From positions 1 to 23,377 of IMG/VR virus record IMGVR_UViG_3300044996_000042: a stretch of DNA of 23,377 nucleotides. One strand, given 5' to 3'. The position numbers and the translations under genes are program-made. Positions 1 through 11,614 of the stretch are shown here, piece after piece. The DNA is from a virus. Within the stretch, counting starts at the first letter, position 1. Each line of letters starts with the position of its first letter. Under the pieces are notes generated by a model. It made no database searches. It saw nothing but the letters and a program-made list of their open reading frames with translations, and was not told the DNA's origin.

Positions 1-432
1 GTTTTGGATCAGTTGGGAAATGCTCTCGATGGCAAAGACTTCTGGACACTCCCCGCCTCACTCAGCCTCTCCACGGCGGAAAATGCCGCCGGGAAGCTGG
101 ACCAGAGTAGACAGAAACTGAATACACTCCTCCCACACCTCCAATTCCTTCGGGAGAAGTCCCCCTGGACAGCGGCAAGATCGGCGTGCCTCGTTGCCGC
201 TTCCCGGACCCTTCAAAGAGCAGAGGAAGTCTATCAACAGCTGGCCACCGCCTACAACAAAATGGTTCCATTCAAGCGGTTGTTCGGGGCTTTGCAATCA
301 GGGTTGTTTCGTTCTGAATCTATCCTGCTGGACATCAAAAGACTTGAGGATGGAATCCGGGGGCTGGGAATCACCAACTGCCCCACCTGCAACCAAAAGG
401 TAGACGATGCGACCCTTATTGGTACTGTCTGA
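1..432 (+). CDS. SbcC/Rad50-like coiled-coil chain ending at a zinc hook (5' partial)
   Basis: The reading frame is open at the left edge, so the true start and any Walker A ATPase region lie outside the window. The visible 142-odd residues are mostly charged and Leu/Gln-rich helix, as in a long coiled coil. Near the end is Cys-Pro-Thr-Cys (nt 379-390), the CPxC form of the Rad50/SbcC zinc hook, which in that family sits at the apex of the coiled coil and holds two molecules together through one zinc ion. The protein stops only about 13 residues after the second Cys instead of returning as the descending helix. The stop overlaps the start of the SbcD-like gene, and an SbcC-type ATPase C-terminus lies 1.2 kb downstream. 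I infer it is the N-terminal half of a split SbcC. An unrelated small zinc protein cannot be ruled out without the upstream sequence. Confidence 0.6.
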   Translation, partial: VLDQLGNALDGKDFWTLPASLSLSTAENAAGKLDQSRQKLNTLLPHLQFLREKSPWTAARSACLVAASRTLQRAEEVYQQLATAYNKMVPFKRLFGALQSGLFRSESILLDIKRLEDGIRGLGITNCPTCNQKVDDATLIGTV

Positions 433-1384
433 TCTCCACTATACCGGCACCCCTCCAGTTTGCCGGAGGGACCGGAACAACTGGATGGAGACCCTGGAAC
501 GCAAGACAGCGTTCATTGGAGGGGTGGCACGCAAACACGACGTGGACGGGATACTCGTTGCTGGAGATGTCTTCGATGTGCCATGCCCTCACGTTTCCGT
601 TCTGATCCAAGTCACCCGCTGGTGGCAGAAATACCTGGGGGATTTCAATATCGTATTGGTACCCGGTCAGCACGATCTACTGAACCATAACTTGGGTCTG
701 TTGGGCAAATCTGCCATCTCCGTCCTTGACGCCCTACCCCGAGTCAGAGTGCTTTTGGACAATGAGGTTTGCTTTCCAGGAAGGGACACTCCAGGAGGAA
801 GTTGGGTGGTGGTGGGAGTCCCCTGGGGGGTGGAGCCCAACGCCCCGGACATTGAAATATCAAATGACACTTGTATCAGCCCCACCATCGTTGCCCTCAC
901 TCACCGCATGGTGTGGTCCAACCAGAAGCCGTACCCCTCCGTGGAAGATTCCGCTCAACTGGAAAAGCAGCGAGAGCTTTTCCATTGGGCAGACATCGTA
1001 GTCTCCGGTGACAACCACCAGAGATTCATCCATATCAACAACCGCAACAATCCAAGGTTGTGGGTAAATCCCGGCTCGTTCTATCGCAGATCAGCGGACC
1101 AGATCGGCTTCCAGCCCCAGTGTGTTCTCATCAGGGGAGTCCCGCCGAATGCAGACGTGGAGACCATCAACATTCCCATAGATCCAGATGCAGTTTCCCG
1201 AGACCATTTGGATGAGGCCAAAGCCGATGAGCGCATAGAGACTTTCGTCAGCAGTCTCCAATCCAGAATAGAGGGGCCGAAACTAGACTTCAAAGAAGTG
1301 GTGGAGCAAATGACCAAACTCCCGTCTGTGTCTGAAGGGGTACGGGGGTGGATGCTGAAAGCCATAGGAGCCGGAAATGCCTAA
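407..1384 (+). CDS. sbcD: SbcD/Mre11-like metallophosphoesterase (nuclease)
   Basis: This 325-residue protein has the calcineurin-like phosphoesterase motifs in order: Asp9-Leu-His11, Gly53-Asp54-Val-Phe-Asp57, Gly87-Gln-His89-Asp90, His166 and Gly201-Asp-Asn-His204. These place two metal ions for phosphodiester hydrolysis. In the SbcCD/Mre11-Rad50 family this subunit is the Mn-dependent DNA end-processing nuclease that works with the SbcC ATPase. Phage versions (T4 gp47, T5 D12) act in recombination and replication. The last motif is GDNH instead of the usual GHxH. The ATG at 407 has AAAGG six bases upstream and overlaps the preceding SbcC-like frame by 26 bases; the stop overlaps the next start. 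The C-terminal 85 or so residues should form the capping/ATPase-binding part. The family call is firm; a distinct phage phosphoesterase subtype is possible. Confidence 0.85.
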   Translation: MRPLLVLSDLHYTGTPPVCRRDRNNWMETLERKTAFIGGVARKHDVDGILVAGDVFDVPCPHVSVLIQVTRWWQKYLGDFNIVLVPGQHDLLNHNLGLLGKSAISVLDALPRVRVLLDNEVCFPGRDTPGGSWVVVGVPWGVEPNAPDIEISNDTCISPTIVALTHRMVWSNQKPYPSVEDSAQLEKQRELFHWADIVVSGDNHQRFIHINNRNNPRLWVNPGSFYRRSADQIGFQPQCVLIRGVPPNADVETINIPIDPDAVSRDHLDEAKADERIETFVSSLQSRIEGPKLDFKEVVEQMTKLPSVSEGVRGWMLKAIGAGNA

Positions 1385-1643
1385 CCAGTCCCCAGAACAA
1401 CTGCTTGCCCGATTGAAGAAGGGGCAGCAAGACCTGGCCGACGCTCGTCAGCAGCTGGCCGTATTGGAAGGACAGATCCAAGCCCACTCCACGGCTCTCC
1501 AGCGAGACTTTGGGGTGAAAACCTTTGAGGAGGGTCTAGCCCTTGAGAAACAACTTGAAGGCGAGATTCCCGGACTGATCTCAGAATTGGAAAAGGCTTT
1601 GATGGAGTTTGAGAGTGCCTTCCAACCTTCCAAACCTACTTGA
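1377..1643 (+). CDS. Small coiled-coil protein, probable descending hook arm of split SbcC
   Basis: This 88-residue protein has no Cys and a heptad-like pattern rich in Leu, Gln, Glu and Ala over residues 5-80, as in a coiled coil. ATG at 1377 has AGGAG six bases upstream and overlaps the SbcD stop by eight bases. It lies between the SbcD-like gene and the SbcC ATPase C-terminal half, in the place where the descending helix of the SbcC coiled coil would be encoded. The stop codon falls inside the start of the next gene, which is in the +1 frame relative to this one. It could be an independent subunit of a three-piece SbcC, or the N-terminal part of the next protein if a +1 frameshift or a sequencing indel joins them. 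Confidence 0.6.
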   Translation: MPNQSPEQLLARLKKGQQDLADARQQLAVLEGQIQAHSTALQRDFGVKTFEEGLALEKQLEGEIPGLISELEKALMEFESAFQPSKPT

Positions 1644-2316
1644 CCGGCTTACCTCAGTCCACACCTTCCTCGTGGGCAAGACTATGGAGAGGGGGCTGTT
1701 GCGTCAGCAGCAGTCCGCCCTGCTTCAAGAGCAAACTGACCTCAAGCAGCGAGAGGAAGATCAGATCACAGCAAGAAGTCTCCTACAATCTGCGGCGCAA
1801 GAAGTGCAGGGGCTGCTCAAGTTCCGACTGACCAATCTGGTCACCACCTGTTTCAGCACTATGATGGAAGAGCCGTATGAGATGGGGTTGGAGTTTGATA
1901 CAGCGAGGGGATACAGCGAGGCCAACCTGTCATTCCTGCGAGATGGAAATCAGTTTGATCCGATGTCGTCCACTGGAGGGGGTCCGGTGGACGTTGCGTC
2001 TTTCGGACTGAGAATCAGTCTCTATGGCATCAACCCCAATCGTCCATCCTTTTTCCTGGATGAGCCGTTCCGTTGCTTGGATGAGGCGGACTTCCCCCAA
2101 CTCGTTTCCTTGCTTCAAAGCATCAGCAAACGTCTTGGCATTCAGATGATCATCGTGACCCACCTCAAAGGACTGATGGACGCTGCTGACATCACTTTCG
2201 TGGCCCAGAGAATCAACAGGACATCCACTCTACGGGCTTTCCCGAAAGGCACCCCCACCGTACTACAGCCCCCAGCCGCTGCGGCTCCTCGCAAGCGTAG
2301 GACAGTCCCGGCGTGA
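1615..2316 (+). CDS. sbcC: SbcC/Rad50-like ATPase, C-terminal half
   Basis: The protein (233 residues from GTG 1615) starts with a coiled coil to about residue 65 and continues into the C-terminal lobe of an SMC/Rad50-type ABC ATPase. A signature-like segment, SSTGGGPVDVASFGLR, corresponds to the ABC LSGGE motif (residues about 118-133). A Walker B with catalytic Glu and D-loop follows (FFLDEP then CLDE, about 146-157), and a switch His sits in IIVTH (His183). No Walker A is present, so ATPase function needs an N-terminal half from another chain. GTG 1615 is preferred because GGAG lies seven bases upstream; a TTG at 1609 is too close to that GGAG. The gene overlaps the coiled-coil ORF by 29 bases and its stop overlaps the next start as GTGA. 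The C-terminal 25 residues are Pro/Ala/Arg-rich and probably disordered. Confidence 0.82.
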   Translation: MPSNLPNLLDRLTSVHTFLVGKTMERGLLRQQQSALLQEQTDLKQREEDQITARSLLQSAAQEVQGLLKFRLTNLVTTCFSTMMEEPYEMGLEFDTARGYSEANLSFLRDGNQFDPMSSTGGGPVDVASFGLRISLYGINPNRPSFFLDEPFRCLDEADFPQLVSLLQSISKRLGIQMIIVTHLKGLMDAADITFVAQRINRTSTLRAFPKGTPTVLQPPAAAAPRKRRTVPA

Positions 2317-3011
2317 ACAACAGAAACGAAAAGGTGGCAATCCTCTGCTTGGTGAAGCCCAACATGGCGGACAAGCTGTGGCTTGCCTGCTTTGAGAATC
2401 TCTCCTACATGATGAGGGCGTGCGGGAGGGAAGGCTATGACACCACGCTGTTTCTGGAAGTCTCCGAGGGAGATCAAGAAATTCAGGGACAGGCCGCAAG
2501 AGGAGAGCACATAGGTAGAATCAGACAAAGACTCATCAACCGCCATCTGAGAGGGAAGAAGCACCTGATCAACTGGGTGTTCTGGATGGATGCGGACATC
2601 AACGGAATCTCTGACTTCAATATCATCCCCCGACTCATTGACGTATCACGCCGCCACAAAGCCATCGTGGCTCCCACCATACTGGTGGAACCGGCTGGGG
2701 ACAAAAGATGGTATGATACCACGGGATTCATTCACAACGAGAGAAAAGCATCCCCAACTCTCCCGTGGATGTCACCCTATGAAATTGGAGGGGAGCCGGG
2801 GCTATGGGCTCTGAATGGCTCCGTGGGCTGCTGCTATCTTTTCCCATACCAACTTCTTGCGGATGATTGTCAATACCGGGGACACCCCTGCTGGACTGAG
2901 CACTACCCGTTCTGCCAAGACGCCATCGCAAAAGGATTCAAGTTGATTTGGGATTCCACTCAAATCGTAGTACACGCCCGACTGCCCTGGTATGGGGAGA
3001 GATTTCACTGA
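2313..3011 (+). CDS. Anp1/Mnn9-like (GT62-type) glycosyltransferase
   Basis: This 232-residue protein shows a GT-A fold pattern: an N-terminal beta strand (VAILCLVKPN), an Arg/Gly-rich nucleotide-sugar region near residue 70, and a DxD metal/nucleotide-sugar motif in FWMDADI (Asp93-Ala-Asp95). The context around the DxD resembles the Anp1/Mnn9/Van1 family of glycosyltransferases. Later acidic and aromatic residues fit an acceptor-binding half. The GTG start overlaps the SbcC stop and the TGA overlaps the ATG of the radical SAM gene, so it is translationally coupled to both. It has no signal peptide or membrane segment, so it should act in the cytoplasm. The sugar and acceptor are unknown; phage DNA, a virion protein and host surface glycan are all possible. 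Confidence 0.7.
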   Translation: MNNRNEKVAILCLVKPNMADKLWLACFENLSYMMRACGREGYDTTLFLEVSEGDQEIQGQAARGEHIGRIRQRLINRHLRGKKHLINWVFWMDADINGISDFNIIPRLIDVSRRHKAIVAPTILVEPAGDKRWYDTTGFIHNERKASPTLPWMSPYEIGGEPGLWALNGSVGCCYLFPYQLLADDCQYRGHPCWTEHYPFCQDAIAKGFKLIWDSTQIVVHARLPWYGERFH

Positions 3012-3853
3012 TGAAAAGCGCCATCTGGTTTGTCACCTGGGACTGCCCATTCAGTTGCCCCTACTGTTGGCAGAACGTAGGAGGGAGAGACGGGATGCGT
3101 CACCCGCTTCCCGACCACCTGCGCAATATGGAAGTGTGGAGGGAGTCTTTCGCAAGAGCATGGACAAGGCTCAACCCATCCATACTAGACCTCACTGGAG
3201 GGGAGCCGCTCACGAGGGACATTCCCGGTCTACTGCGACTGCTTCCCAAAGACATCCGGGTAGGAATCACCACCAATACACAGCACCAAGATCGGATGAA
3301 AGAGCTTGCGACTGGGTGGACAAACGAGACCATCATCAGTTGGACTCTCTCATATCATCCCAGTCAATACCCCACGGACTCCAAGCGGGCAGAGTTTTGG
3401 GGATGGGTGAGTGTGTTGAAGTCCAGGGGGTTTCACGTTTGCGTCAACTTTGTCGGACATCCTGATCAGTTGGTTATGGTCCCGACCGTGCAGCGGCTTT
3501 GCCGTTCCTTCCAGGCCAACTTTCACTTTGATCCGTATGCCGTGCCTCCGGGCAGGAAGGCTCCCGAGTACACGCCCGGTCAACTGGACCTCATCAACTC
3601 CCTCACCCCAACCAATCGCACCACGGAGACTCCCGGAAGGAAGGCTGTGTGCTCCGCCGGGAAGACTCATCTGATGGTATTCCCGAGTGGGGTCGCATAC
3701 CACTGTATGCAGCCCTTCCATAAGCAATCTCCCGCTATGGGAAACATTCTCGATGAGGGGTTCCAGTTGAGAGAGAATGAGGTGACTTGCTTGGAGCCTC
3801 ACTGGTGCGCCGGTTGCGACAGAGACAAGGTGGATCGGACCTTCCTGGAGTAG
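3011..3853 (+). CDS. Radical SAM enzyme with SPASM-like C-terminal cysteines
   Basis: The 280-residue protein has the radical SAM cluster motif CxxxCxxC at Cys12, Cys16 and Cys19 (CPFSCPYC) and the SAM-binding GGEP at 63-66. These cleave S-adenosylmethionine to make a 5'-deoxyadenosyl radical. The C-terminus has further cysteines at about 214, 232, 260, 266 and 269, with spacing like a SPASM/twitch auxiliary Fe-S domain used by peptide- or sugar-modifying enzymes. ATG 3011 is chosen because it overlaps the preceding stop (TGATG) and has GGGGAGA about ten bases upstream; the upstream in-frame extension to 2948 lies inside the previous gene. It sits between a glycosyltransferase and a DUF6165-like gene. 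The substrate is not identifiable; a modified sugar, nucleotide or peptide are all open. Confidence 0.85.
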   Translation: MKSAIWFVTWDCPFSCPYCWQNVGGRDGMRHPLPDHLRNMEVWRESFARAWTRLNPSILDLTGGEPLTRDIPGLLRLLPKDIRVGITTNTQHQDRMKELATGWTNETIISWTLSYHPSQYPTDSKRAEFWGWVSVLKSRGFHVCVNFVGHPDQLVMVPTVQRLCRSFQANFHFDPYAVPPGRKAPEYTPGQLDLINSLTPTNRTTETPGRKAVCSAGKTHLMVFPSGVAYHCMQPFHKQSPAMGNILDEGFQLRENEVTCLEPHWCAGCDRDKVDRTFLE

Positions 3854-6963: not shown

Positions 6964-8454
6964 CTACTTTCCGCGAAGACTCATACCACGCAATTCGCAC
7001 GGTTCCGTTCCGGGGTACGTCACCCGCAACACCAGTGCCGTCCCAGCCGTCACAGCAGTTGGAGCGGTGAAGTATCGGCGCGAATGGGGTGCACCGGACA
7101 CTGTAGTAACCACCTGCGTCCACGAAACACCATTATCGGCAGATACCCAGTTGGTCACGCCGCTCAACGCATTCGAGGATTGCAGCCAGTAGCACGCCAC
7201 CACATTTGAGACGCTGTAAGCAGTATAGTGGGGCAGACTACGGAAAGTCCACTCTGTGCCTGGAGCGCGCACACTTACCGGACTGCTACGCCAGTTCGCG
7301 GTATCGGCGGACCAAGTCGCAGGGTGCTGGTTCAGAACATCAGCGACATTGGTATCGGACCCCTCGTTCATCGGCCAGTAGCCCAGCAGGCCCTTGCCGG
7401 ATGGATGCACGCCGGGTGTCTGCCACAGTGCCTCGTTGGCGTTATACGGATGCCCACGGCCACCACCGTAGAGGGTCTGCGCTTCCTTGTCGGAGAGGGC
7501 GCGATTCCACATGGCCACGTCGTCCACGCCACCGTACATGGTGTTGCCCAAATCATCCGTGCGTCCGACAACCCACTTGGAAATGCCGGACGGGTAGATG
7601 AACATCTCCCTGCAACTGCCGCCACTTCCGCCATAAGTGGCCGGGACCAACAAGCAAGAATAGACTCCGTCCTTGTAAACCCTAGCTGCTCCGCGAGTCT
7701 TGGCATAGCTGTACGCGTAATGGTGCCATTCCGGCCCCCACCCATCCGCTGCGTACAAGGACGGTCCTACAATAAAGCTCCCCTGTTCATACCATTGAAC
7801 CTGAATCTGCGTAACTGGGCCAAACGAAATAGCATTCCAGGTGCCATAGCCCGCCTCCACAAACATGAATCCGCCCGATTCCACGTACCCTTCCCTTTGC
7901 GCGGTGCTGGCGAGTGGGCAAGCGTAGGTACGACCAATGGCCGAGTTGTCTGGTACGTTGCACCAGAAGCTCACGGACCATTCACGCCCAGTCCAGTCCA
8001 ATGCGCCGCTTGCAAATGGAATATCGATGGAGTGCGTGCCCATTCCATCAAACGAGGCGGCGGAGCCAATTGCATTCGTGTAGTTTACCAGCCCGAAACC
8101 AGCAAGGGAGACTAACCCCGTTGTCCCGCTCGCATCAACCATTTCATTGTCGAAACCGGCGTCAATCCATCCATCAGGTAGTCTCAACGTTGGTTCGGTG
8201 GTGGTACGCCAGAATTGTTCGGCTTCTGCCACGGATGCAACTGTAAATGGAGATGCCACCAAAAGGACACCAGCTGCGTACTGGCCGGCAATGCTTGCGG
8301 AGTAATTGCTCACCGCAACAACCGCGCCAGTGGGAGACGTGGTTTGTAGAGTTCCATCGGGGAACTGGACACTCGACACCTTCAGTGACGGAGCCGCCTT
8401 GGCCAATAGACCGCAAAAGCAAGCCGCCACCAACACCATCAACCATCTTTTCAT
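6964..8454 (-). CDS. Secreted LamG/concanavalin-like lectin protein with fibre-type motif
   Basis: The 496-residue protein starts with a clear Sec signal peptide (residues 1-20, KRW then a Leu/Val/Ala core, ending AKA-AP). Residues 29-40 read VQFPDGTLQTTS, similar to the FPDGTxQT motif at the start of many phage tail-fibre and adhesin domains. A LamG-like jelly-roll follows at about 134-330: FDG, WSVSFW, WHHYAYSYAK, VYKDG and VDDVAMWNRALSDKEAQTLY are its standard strands. A C-terminal beta-rich region (about 390-496) follows. LamG domains bind glycans or proteins. GAGGTG seven bases upstream supports ATG 8454. The place in the operon is that of a tail fibre or receptor-binding protein, but a Sec signal is unusual for a virion protein. 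Confidence 0.85.
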   Translation of the reverse strand: MKRWLMVLVAACFCGLLAKAAPSLKVSSVQFPDGTLQTTSPTGAVVAVSNYSASIAGQYAAGVLLVASPFTVASVAEAEQFWRTTTEPTLRLPDGWIDAGFDNEMVDASGTTGLVSLAGFGLVNYTNAIGSAASFDGMGTHSIDIPFASGALDWTGREWSVSFWCNVPDNSAIGRTYACPLASTAQREGYVESGGFMFVEAGYGTWNAISFGPVTQIQVQWYEQGSFIVGPSLYAADGWGPEWHHYAYSYAKTRGAARVYKDGVYSCLLVPATYGGSGGSCREMFIYPSGISKWVVGRTDDLGNTMYGGVDDVAMWNRALSDKEAQTLYGGGRGHPYNANEALWQTPGVHPSGKGLLGYWPMNEGSDTNVADVLNQHPATWSADTANWRSSPVSVRAPGTEWTFRSLPHYTAYSVSNVVACYWLQSSNALSGVTNWVSADNGVSWTQVVTTVSGAPHSRRYFTAPTAVTAGTALVLRVTYPGTEPCELRGMSLRGK

Positions 8455-8463
8455 TTCATCACC

Positions 8464-9228
8464 TCACGCAATCGGAGTCTTCATCACCACGTAGTGGAGC
8501 TTGTATCCAGCCGGCACCGGGGCGGAGAAGTCCACCACAATCAACCCGCTGGAATCGGGTTGGCGAGCTTGCGCCAGTATCATGACGCCACCAACCACCG
8601 GAGCTTCCACGTGGACGGTATACAACCGCAAAGCACCCGTGACTTCGATGTTGTGATACTCCGCCCCCTCCGTGATGTTGGCCAGACCCTCAACAAACGA
8701 GTTGCCAGTGGGTAACGGGTTGGAATCCCAATGGATGGCGTCTCCGTAGATGAAGGGCATCCGCTGACAGAACACCATCTGACGAGCGGGATCACTCTCC
8801 CAGGCCTGAAACTCCAAGAAGCCCTCTCTGCGAGACTTGCCTCCAACGACTTCCTGGAAGGACTCGTTGTATGAGTCTAGATAGACGGTCATCTGGCCCA
8901 AAGCCGGATCAGGATTGGTGGAGCCTGAGGAGGAAGCCGCCGCCCAGGTTCCATCGGCATTTACGTTCGCGCCCTCAGACAACAGAATCTCTGTGCGATC
9001 GGCGGTGGCAAGTCCAAAGGCTCCCGCGAACAGATACTCAACCCCGTCTCCCGTAGGCACCCCCACATATGGGTTGGAGTAGGAGCCGTCACAAAGCCGG
9101 AGCCGCAGCAGAACCTTCTCTTGATAGATAATGCCTGGGAAAAGGTTGGCGCTGATCTGATTCCCGGCACCATTGTAGAACCGCTGGTTGGTCACATCCC
9201 ACCAAGCGTCAATGATACGATTGCTCAT
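8464..9228 (-). CDS. Putative minor tail or baseplate protein
   Basis: The 254-residue protein has no signal peptide. It is beta-rich, with Gly, Ser, Asn and aromatic residues, and begins SNRIIDAWWDVTNQRFYNG, which resembles the N-terminal domain of phage baseplate or fibre-base proteins. I chose ATG 9228 because GGAG lies eight bases upstream; the longer frame to 9348 would overlap the upstream gene and add a poor N-terminus. The stop is nine bases before the LamG start, so the two are coupled, and it may be the adaptor for that protein. No catalytic motif is visible. Function is inferred from position only. Confidence 0.7.
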   Translation of the reverse strand: MSNRIIDAWWDVTNQRFYNGAGNQISANLFPGIIYQEKVLLRLRLCDGSYSNPYVGVPTGDGVEYLFAGAFGLATADRTEILLSEGANVNADGTWAAASSSGSTNPDPALGQMTVYLDSYNESFQEVVGGKSRREGFLEFQAWESDPARQMVFCQRMPFIYGDAIHWDSNPLPTGNSFVEGLANITEGAEYHNIEVTGALRLYTVHVEAPVVGGVMILAQARQPDSSGLIVVDFSAPVPAGYKLHYVVMKTPIA

Positions 9229-9286
9229 AGGAATCTCTCCAGTTGTAAGATAGGACTTTGTCCCATCCCCTTCTATGTCAAACCAG

Positions 9287-11614
9287 CTATGGACGCCACT
9301 GAATGATGACTGGTCCTCTGTCAATCGTATGACCGTACTCCACCTCAAAAGTACGGTACCAAAAGCTGGTTTCTTCCGGTGGGGGGTTAGTGGGGGGAGC
9401 CGTCAGCTCATCCAAAAGGGAATCTGGGATGGTAGGAATCCAGTTGTCAGTGAAAGGCTTCCAAGTCACAAAGGTATCAGTAACCCAACCGCTATCAGCC
9501 ACCTTGACAGAAGCCGTGGTTGTGAGGGAGGAGTCGAAAGCAGCGGTGCCGGGGCAGTCCCATACTTTCAGCCGGATAGTTTCATATGTCCAAGAGTACG
9601 GATGCGACCCAGTAGAAAACGTGGTGCGGGTCTCCTCGTTTGTCCAACCACGGTATGCATACATCCGCACGCGATGAGAGATGCCGGTGTAGAGCGGGGG
9701 AGTTATGGATTCAGTGCGATTTACCTGAATGTTGATGCCGCAGGTGTTTGCGTCATTGCTCCAGGTCACATATCCCATGGATTGATAATATCTCCAATAA
9801 GATTGACCACTTCTCAGGAAGGCGCGATTGTCTAGGCTCCTGAAGTTGTTGTCATTCAAAAACACCCGATTGGTTGCCGCGTGGAAAGAGTCCTTCAGGG
9901 AACCGGAGTTCACCTCATTCCAATTGGTAGAGCAGGAACCGGCCCAGCCAGCAATCCCGTTGGTCTTCCAGTTATTCAACCTCACTCCGTCCGGGGAGAG
10001 AATCTGCACGGTCATAGTATTGTTGAGGAAAGTGAGCACGTTGGTAATGGTAGCAAACTCATTGGTCTGCCGAAGATATGAACTGGAAGGCACGCCCCAA
10101 ATAGATTGAGGCACTCCAGCCCTTTCGAGAAGTCCGGTGTATGCCATCCACGGCCCCTGACCTGGATTGGCGCACCATCCCCGCTTCCTCAACTCCTCTG
10201 ATTTGTCGAATACCAGGCTTTCATCCTCACCAACTTCTGGTCTTACAAACCGTGCCTCATCCTTTCCTTCTATCCCTGGCCCAGAACCCTCGTTGCCCTC
10301 AAACCAGGTATACACCGAGGAAAGCCAAGAATGGTAAGCATCATCCATTTGCCGGCTGAATGGAAGGAAGAATCCAGGGACTTCCCCGGAAGCCCGCCAT
10401 AGATTCTGGCTGGAATGGTCCCCCAGATTCCTGCAGGCAATCTCCCACTGCGGAGCCTTCCGGGCTAGACTATTTGTGGGACGGAAGCCTCCCCACTGAG
10501 TCACCACATTGGTGAAGAAGGAACCATCCACACGAGACACAGCCCCAGTGATAGACCACACATCGTTTGTATGGTCATTCTCCGTCATCTCCTCCACCTT
10601 CCCTCCAACCACCCAAACAAAAGGCAGGTGTGTTGCCTTGCTCACCAACCAACGATTCGACAAGATGGGAAATGTGGCGGGATTCCAGGCGAGAGGAGAC
10701 TGACCCCAATCCCTACAATACGGGCTGACAATGACTGCAGAAGTTGAATAATCCCCTTCCTTCTTCCCCCCTCCAACAAACCCCCTATCAATCAATCTGA
10801 ATCCCCCGGCATTCTGGTACACATAGATATATGAATTCAACTGATACTCAGAAGCAAAGTATGGATTGGCTTGAAAGACTGCCCAGGGCCATCCTGGAGA
10901 TGACCATTCGTAGGAGCGTTGATCAATCACCGGGGCGACATAATCCCGCAGCATTCCTTTCCAAGCCAAGACATACTCCCCGTCCATCCCGTTGGAGATG
11001 CTGTTGAAGCCCGAGACTTTCAGTGCTGTTTTGCCAGATGTCCAAAGCCAATAGCTGTTAGTCTCCTCGTGGTAAATCATCCGGGATATGTAGTGAGGAA
11101 ACCCCCAAACATCATATGGAAACTTGAAGGCATCGTACACTTTATTCCAACCCTCCTCCGGCATGAGGGGGTGCTCATTCCATACATTGGTAGTATACCA
11201 CCGAGTGATTCTGACCTGGCGGTCCGTGGAGCCGGGGACATCCTCCCATTCCGGTACCCAGTAGTTTGTCCAGCAGTACCAGTTGGTATGAGGACCCAAA
11301 TAGACAGAACCGTTGAAATTGGTGAACTGATAGCCACCCACCCAGTCATTGCTCTTCACCAACACGGTCCAATCACTCGGGCAAGATCCACCGAAAGGGA
11401 CTGTGTATTGCTCCCTCCTCACCAGATTGGGCCAAGAGAGGGTATTGGGAACCCTCAACATCAACGCACGAGACGTCCAGTTGCTCACCACGTTGAAGTA
11501 GTCTGCCGTGTTGTATCTCTGTGGTGACGGACGGCTGCGGGTCATCTGAGTGCCAACAAACACCGCCCCTCCCACCAGCATCAACCCCATCACCCATTTC
11601 TTATTGGAGACCAT
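9287..11614 (-). CDS. Large membrane-anchored, Trp-rich protein of unknown function
   Basis: I do not recognise this 775-residue protein. A lysine pair and a hydrophobic segment (WVMGLMLVGGAVFVGTQM, residues 7-24) give an uncleaved N-terminal anchor or signal. The rest is exceptionally rich in Trp, Tyr, Asn and Thr, with many WTN, TNVW and NYW clusters and scattered Cys, and looks like an extended beta-rich extracytoplasmic protein. ATG 11614 has GAGGTG seven bases upstream. The C-terminal third contains repeated beta-type segments and a Pro-rich linker (APPTNPPPEE). It lies between tail-tip candidates and the baseplate/LamG genes, where one would expect a fibre, tail spike or central tail protein. 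Composition is unlike the structural genes before it. Confidence 0.8.
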   Translation of the reverse strand: MVSNKKWVMGLMLVGGAVFVGTQMTRSRPSPQRYNTADYFNVVSNWTSRALMLRVPNTLSWPNLVRREQYTVPFGGSCPSDWTVLVKSNDWVGGYQFTNFNGSVYLGPHTNWYCWTNYWVPEWEDVPGSTDRQVRITRWYTTNVWNEHPLMPEEGWNKVYDAFKFPYDVWGFPHYISRMIYHEETNSYWLWTSGKTALKVSGFNSISNGMDGEYVLAWKGMLRDYVAPVIDQRSYEWSSPGWPWAVFQANPYFASEYQLNSYIYVYQNAGGFRLIDRGFVGGGKKEGDYSTSAVIVSPYCRDWGQSPLAWNPATFPILSNRWLVSKATHLPFVWVVGGKVEEMTENDHTNDVWSITGAVSRVDGSFFTNVVTQWGGFRPTNSLARKAPQWEIACRNLGDHSSQNLWRASGEVPGFFLPFSRQMDDAYHSWLSSVYTWFEGNEGSGPGIEGKDEARFVRPEVGEDESLVFDKSEELRKRGWCANPGQGPWMAYTGLLERAGVPQSIWGVPSSSYLRQTNEFATITNVLTFLNNTMTVQILSPDGVRLNNWKTNGIAGWAGSCSTNWNEVNSGSLKDSFHAATNRVFLNDNNFRSLDNRAFLRSGQSYWRYYQSMGYVTWSNDANTCGINIQVNRTESITPPLYTGISHRVRMYAYRGWTNEETRTTFSTGSHPYSWTYETIRLKVWDCPGTAAFDSSLTTTASVKVADSGWVTDTFVTWKPFTDNWIPTIPDSLLDELTAPPTNPPPEETSFWYRTFEVEYGHTIDRGPVIIQWRP

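Follow-up and report, generated by a model that had tools for sequence, protein, structure and literature searches.

Rad50/SbcC-like proteins encoded as three separate chains, with the break just after the putative zinc hook, in phages and Bacillota

The window analyzed here, a viral contig of 23,377 bp (IMG/VR record IMGVR_UViG_3300044996_000042) that also contains a tail tape-measure gene, harbors at its left end four genes named here N (Walker A lobe, arm, and hook), D (SbcD), S (small coil), and C (Walker B lobe). The 3′ part of N (1–432, +), a Rad50/SbcC N-half, is open from the left edge and closed by a stop codon at 430–432. Translation of the window gave CPTCNQKVDDATLIGTV as the C-terminal end of this frame and placed its CPTC zinc-hook motif (379–390, +) 13 residues before the stop, as the sequence-only reading had described. 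D (407–1384, +) overlaps N and encodes a 325-aa SbcD/Mre11-like nuclease (Metallophos, E 1e-8) with the metal motifs DLH, GDVFD, GQHD, TH, and GDNH. S (1377–1643, +) encodes a Cys-free coiled coil of 88 aa consisting of a helix, a G-V turn, and a second helix. C (1615–2316, +) encodes a Rad50-type C-lobe preceded by a short N-terminal coil (233–235 aa, the start codon being unresolved among GTG 1615, TTG 1609, and ATG 1684), and matched SMC_N (E 6e-4) and phrog_15167 “ATPase” (E 2e-16). The ORFs and profile matches thus bore out the gene order inferred earlier, i.e., hook ORF, SbcD-like gene, Cys-free coiled-coil ORF, and C-lobe. Among the motifs previously assigned to the C-lobe, the Walker B Asp-Glu (FFLDE, 2059–2064, +) and the switch Thr-His (2158–2163, +) were found as claimed, but the “signature” is a divergent GGG (1975–1983, +) without the preceding conserved Ser, which is not conserved in the family either. 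Beside C, the region 2313–3011 showed a weak match to an Anp1-type glycosyltransferase, and 3011–3853 is a radical SAM protein gene.

The Walker A motif, which the sequence-only reading had proposed to look for in the upstream frame, was found in a near-identical contig, L002, showing 95–97% nucleotide identity to the window across the N, D, S, and C genes. N of L002 is 407 aa long, extends from MIKQVRLINWQGYSDQTVDLSPGINVFIGPIDAGKSS (Walker A) to the CPTC tail found in the window, contains the Walker A sequence MIKQVRLINWQGYSDQTVDLSPGINVFIGPIDAGKSSVLRAI in frame with the hook end, and matched PF13476 AAA_23 (E 7e-15). Hence, the first ORF of the window represents an entire Rad50 N-half comprising head lobe, arm, hook, and stop. 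Comparison of the two contigs yielded dN/dS values of 0.16 for the N tail, 0.04 for SbcD, 0.19 for S, and 0.06 for C, values (0.04–0.19) that point to purifying selection on all four genes in this pair. Upstream of N, L002 carries a RecA-like gene (L002:2086–3165) and a 5′-3′ exonuclease gene (L002:3146–4099), which echo the recA neighborhood of the chromosomal loci described below.

The best matches of the N, C, and D profiles were M. jannaschii Rad50 (E 6e-21), the P. furiosus Rad50 C-lobe (E 4e-20), and P. furiosus Mre11 (E 6e-19), respectively. AlphaFold models of N matched SMC/Rad50 heads, with P. furiosus Rad50 among the best matches. The Walker A residues G29, G34, and K35 were present in 45 of 46 aligned N sequences and the Q-loop Q123 in all 46 (L002 and the family, this part being absent from the window), while the first and second hook Cys were found in 46/46 and 45/46. 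Alignment of C showed the Walker B DE in 53/53 and the switch His in 52/53 sequences; LSGGQ/E with its Ser was not met, GGG being present instead, preceded mostly by Arg, Phe, Ser, or Lys. Walker A is found on N without Walker B, and Walker B on C without Walker A, so that neither protein makes up an ABC ATPase by itself. The SbcD metal ligands D9, H11, D54, H89, H166, and H204 were retained; N88 is replaced by Gln in 13 of 49 sequences and the first His of GHxH by Asp in 18 of 49, the window included. Among the window's relatives, GQHD for GNHD and GDNH for GHxH often occurred together. The residues of these SbcD proteins suggest that their second metal site may have been remodeled.

The location of CxxC at the end of the helical arm of N identifies it as a putative zinc hook, for which zinc-binding data are lacking, and CPxC of N gave a weak match to Pfam Rad50_zn_hook (E 0.006). 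The other hallmark, a single chain with the hook in its middle, was not met, since N and C are separate ORFs at nearly all loci. S matched phrog_18563 in Bacillus-type relatives and showed only generic helix and coiled-coil matches in the PDB. Comparison of S with the coil of C gave an hhalign probability of 69%, which is suggestive only, as coiled coils are known to mislead.

The distribution of this gene set was evaluated with a profile derived from the C proteins of the window and L002, gp35 of Bacillus phage vB_BboS-125, and an ORF of phage LR745208. The C-based profile matched 80 viral loci, and at nearly all of them the four parts lie on separate ORFs. When species genomes were scanned, 238 relatives emerged, of which 80 were kept, a few of phage type and most on Bacillota chromosomes. 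The loci are partly redundant (e.g., L043–L057). Overall, the split layout recurs at more than 150 loci (besides the window, some 80 viral contigs and close to 90 segments of Bacillota chromosomes), a recurrence which, along with the low dN/dS of the window/L002 pair, places it far beyond chance. Among viral loci with all four parts, the order was N-D-S-C, as in the window, at 41, N-S-C-D at 35, and N-D-C-S at 1, and the first of these included the cultured Microcystis phage Mvi-JY20; the gene order was thus recovered in other phages, where the sequence-only reading had proposed to search for it. All 86 four-part chromosomal loci showed the order D-N-S-C. Of the 81 viral N proteins, 78 ended 3–32 residues past CxxC, as did 84 of the 88 chromosomal ones (162/169 overall). 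The exceptions were a variant hook (L042), a single-chain protein (L066), a fusion (L172), and N ORFs that were cut, broken, or truncated (L045, L124, L156, and L162). N and C shared one ORF at only two loci, and S was detected at nearly all loci (E about 1e-10 to 1e-28), including those where over 1 kb separates it from C. The earlier proposal of a Rad50/SbcC split at its zinc hook is supported as to the split, the pieces of Rad50 being three (N, S, and C) rather than two.

Among other cultured phages, Bacillus phage vB_BboS-125 carries the split system, and a C homologue is present in Tunturiibacter phage Tunturi_5. In vB_BboS-125, N and S are separated by an AP2-domain gene, and an SbcD-like ORF of 326 aa (L003:8247–9227; NC_048735.1, about 22423–23403) falls in an annotation gap. 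Phage LR745208 (L087) has, between S (7232–7621) and C (8758–9393), a 377-aa ORF that resembles a DNA sliding clamp as judged by reading only. A tblastn search of cultured phages with the window SbcD gave no match. Two deviations in architecture were observed. Microbacterium phage Magritte (L090) encodes an N of 350 aa without CxxC, far from S and C, and the fusion at L172:3652–5754 (−) joins D, N-lobe, and C-lobe in an arm-less single chain of 700 aa with almost no coiled coil. These two indicate that loss of the hook and of the arm is possible. A D-N fusion was found at L026. In a tree of N head, C, and D, rooted at the midpoint only, the chromosomal forms grouped in a single clade of 84 leaves with a support of 0.85; the window fell inside a viral clade of 17.

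Six chromosomal loci were examined in detail. D was positioned directly after recA or separated from it by one small ORF, and an rny (RNase Y)-type ORF followed C in most of them; in L110, an rny-like ORF was found on the opposite strand, some 4 kb farther along. These neighbors were mostly named by eye, with profile confirmation for RecA in L105 and L110 and for RNase Y in L105. Of 27 genomes with the split operon, 24 gave no match to canonical SbcC (TIGR00618) at E 1e-10; two of the remaining three possess a separate SbcC, and in the third the match was apparently N itself. In a sample of 299 Bacillota genomes drawn evenly, the split form, taken as a separate C ORF at E <4e-45 and counted by hand, was present in 47, and TIGR00618 was matched at 1e-15 by 2 of these 47 compared with 118 of the 252 without this form (Fisher p 2.5e-9, phylogeny not controlled). 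As for the two genomes with both forms, the copy in G123 is phage-type and the match in G202 is marginal. No full-length SbcC was seen in 22 related virus records, where every placeable phrog_77 match was N or C. It seems that the recA-linked split version stands in for canonical SbcCD in many Bacillota. Some Bacillota genomes (G134 and G317) contain two full-length C homologues, the second copies (L174 and L175) also lying in D-N-S-C loci.

The span from Walker A to the hook ranged from 257 to 482 aa in the viral set and was 572 aa in one chromosomal member. S (about 75–92 aa) and C (about 199–225 aa) were of constant size in most members, their correlation with N arm length being r −0.33 and −0.03, respectively. 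Since only the N arm changes in length, residue-for-residue pairing of the arms is ruled out. Autocorrelation of the N arm profile was strongest at lag 47, above the heptad, and the hydrophobic periodicity peaked at 47 in 61 viral and, separately, in 94 chromosomal arms. The model of A. pseudofirmus N showed helix breaks near residues 253, 299, and 350, and two common length classes, at about 428 and about 475, are 47 apart. The N arm is thus a repeat array of 47-residue helical units. The AlphaFold models of N showed confident heads and helices with a pTM of 0.36–0.42, the geometry of the arm not being confident, and Gaussian DCA of 88 N sequences for arm partners returned mostly noise and heptad signal. 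In the shortest N, with an arm of about 130 aa, S and the C coil together are of similar length, as would be expected of a two-stranded arm that is simply broken. The earlier suggestion that the broken helices could still lie side by side is in agreement with this shortest form, but is unsupported in longer members, where the N arm varies by more than 200 residues. For a longer N, the pairing partner must be the same chain, a second N, or several S, and owing to the independence of N arm length from S and C length, S is not simply the whole missing arm at 1:1:1 in these members. A speculative arrangement, for which there is at present little assurance, is an adjustable non-covalent arm in which several S would tile the N repeats above the C coil, the ring would open at the apex or between S subunits, and the repeats would set the length. 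If so, arm length would evolve through repeat number, with S and C fixed.

The reading best supported, with a probability of roughly 0.77, is that N, S, C, and D constitute an active four-subunit Mre11-Rad50 (SbcCD-type) nuclease complex whose Rad50 is built from three chains. N would contribute Walker A, the Q-loop, the long arm of 47-residue repeats, and the terminal CPxC zinc hook, and C the signature region, Walker B, and switch His on a short coil. The place of S is inferred; most likely, it prolongs the C coil within the descending arm. Each ATPase head would consist of an N lobe and a C lobe without a covalent link, and DNA would be clamped by two heads together with an SbcD dimer. It is further inferred that zinc at the tip can still bridge two N chains. 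Physical assembly and ATP-dependent nuclease activity are inferences as well, and so is the biological role, which in phages would probably be recombination and DNA-end processing. The D-N-C fusion of L172 and the D-N fusion of L026 support a single complex. The missing canonical signature Ser counts against this reading, as do the N of Magritte without a hook, the absence of an arm in L172, and an N arm length that is unrelated to the lengths of S and C.

An alternative that is unlikely but cannot be set aside holds that CPxC is a local zinc site, serving SbcD, S, or DNA binding or the folding of the N tip, and no dimerizing hook, so that the complex would function through its heads and nuclease alone. 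The hook is indeed severed from its descending helix, N is highly variable in length, the hook-less N of Magritte and the arm-less fusion exist, and no model has a confident arm geometry. However, CPxC is as in Rad50 hooks, is nearly invariant, and caps a long helical arm; the 3–32 residues following it resemble the start of a descending helix, and Rad50_zn_hook is matched, if weakly. Another possibility, that N and C are not partners and that N, S, C, and SbcD are merely adjacent genes of different complexes, could draw on the distance of the Magritte N from its S and C and on the frequency of intervening genes. It is very improbable in view of the presence of Walker A on N only and Walker B on C only, the strict co-occurrence of the parts, and the two fusions. 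Similarly little credence can be given to a Lamassu-related defense system with an LmuB-like SMC in place of a repair complex. PADLOC LmuB models matched N weakly (E 3e-13 to 3e-15), but the Rad50 profile matched equally or more strongly, the chromosomal site is fixed beside recA and rny, the partner is an Mre11-type nuclease, and the near-exclusion with SbcC points to repair. A single-chain SMC-like LmuB with an LmuA effector was not met, only weak partial LmuB matches being found.

The frame offsets from N to S were distributed over all three frames (29/33/23), which excludes a general readthrough or frameshift from N to S, and in many cases S is preceded by a ribosome-binding site of its own. 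N, S, and C ORFs terminate with all three stop codons, which argues against recoding. Recoded stops were considered for L083 and L082, for which very long open frames were listed, and rejected, direct translation of L083 showing true stops after N. The view that the split is an artefact (a pseudogene, an assembly error, a recoded stop, or a programmed frameshift or readthrough restoring one chain), to which the out-of-frame S/C overlap of the window and the N and S that are at times in-frame might lend support, is already contradicted by these offsets and stop codons, by the low dN/dS, by the identical break in cultured phages and many chromosomes, and by the other genes often placed between S and C, and hardly merits consideration.

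A Rad50 in three chains, cut after the hook, seems to be a conserved form of this repair machine that has not been described before. Few repair machines are as conserved as Rad50, and the role of its covalent loop through coil and hook is debated. Here, the hook is kept by selection and the chain is cut beside it, both in phages and in what is apparently the sole SbcCD-like enzyme of many Bacillota. This amounts to a natural experiment that asks if DNA tethering, sensing, and ATP-gated nuclease action depend on an unbroken arm, and the enzyme, being small and multi-chain, lends itself to structural studies. It also offers a likely identity for proteins now labeled “exonuclease,” “ATPase,” or “hypothetical” and suggests a reason why searches with canonical SbcC overlook an SbcCD-type enzyme in many Bacillota genomes.

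No description of a split Rad50/SbcC was found in the open-licence literature, Pfam, NCBIfam, or PHROGs. PHROG 16465 (“exonuclease”), 15167 (“ATPase”), and 18563 (unknown) correspond to N, C, and S of Bacillus-type phages, listed apart and without a link as one Rad50. SbcC/SbcD have been reported as nearly universal in jumbo phages, with no split noted in the portion of the report available (PMC7824862), and “split” in PMC5105663 refers to separated genes. The accessible part of the vB_BboS-125 paper (PMC6375668) does not mention the N, D, S, and C genes. Fusions of Mre11 and Rad50 are known from Mimivirus R555 and others, and those in Anaerostipes and Bacillus phage 0305phi8-36 lack one P-loop segment, as far as the available text goes (PMC3175470). 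Perhaps the latter are unrecognized members of the split type; the proteins in that partial source fuse D to Rad50, and a split Rad50 is not mentioned in it.

The split system resembles Mre11-Rad50/SbcCD (E. coli SbcCD, P. furiosus MR, and T4 gp46/gp47) in its head motifs, hook, and helical arms, in having the SbcD/Mre11 nuclease as gene neighbor, and in profile homology. Unlike these, its Rad50 consists of three chains cut after the hook, the signature Ser is gone, the N arm is made of 47-aa repeats, a small S subunit is present, and the SbcD ligands are altered in the window's relatives. Two-chain heads of P. furiosus Rad50cd are active. As in the split system, the N and C lobes of Rad50cd are separate chains in the PDB (1f2t_A/1f2t_B and 1ii8_A/1ii8_B), indicating that the two lobes can form a head without being one chain. 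Rad50cd is, however, engineered and devoid of arm and hook, whereas the split described here is natural and includes an arm, a hook, and an extra S chain.
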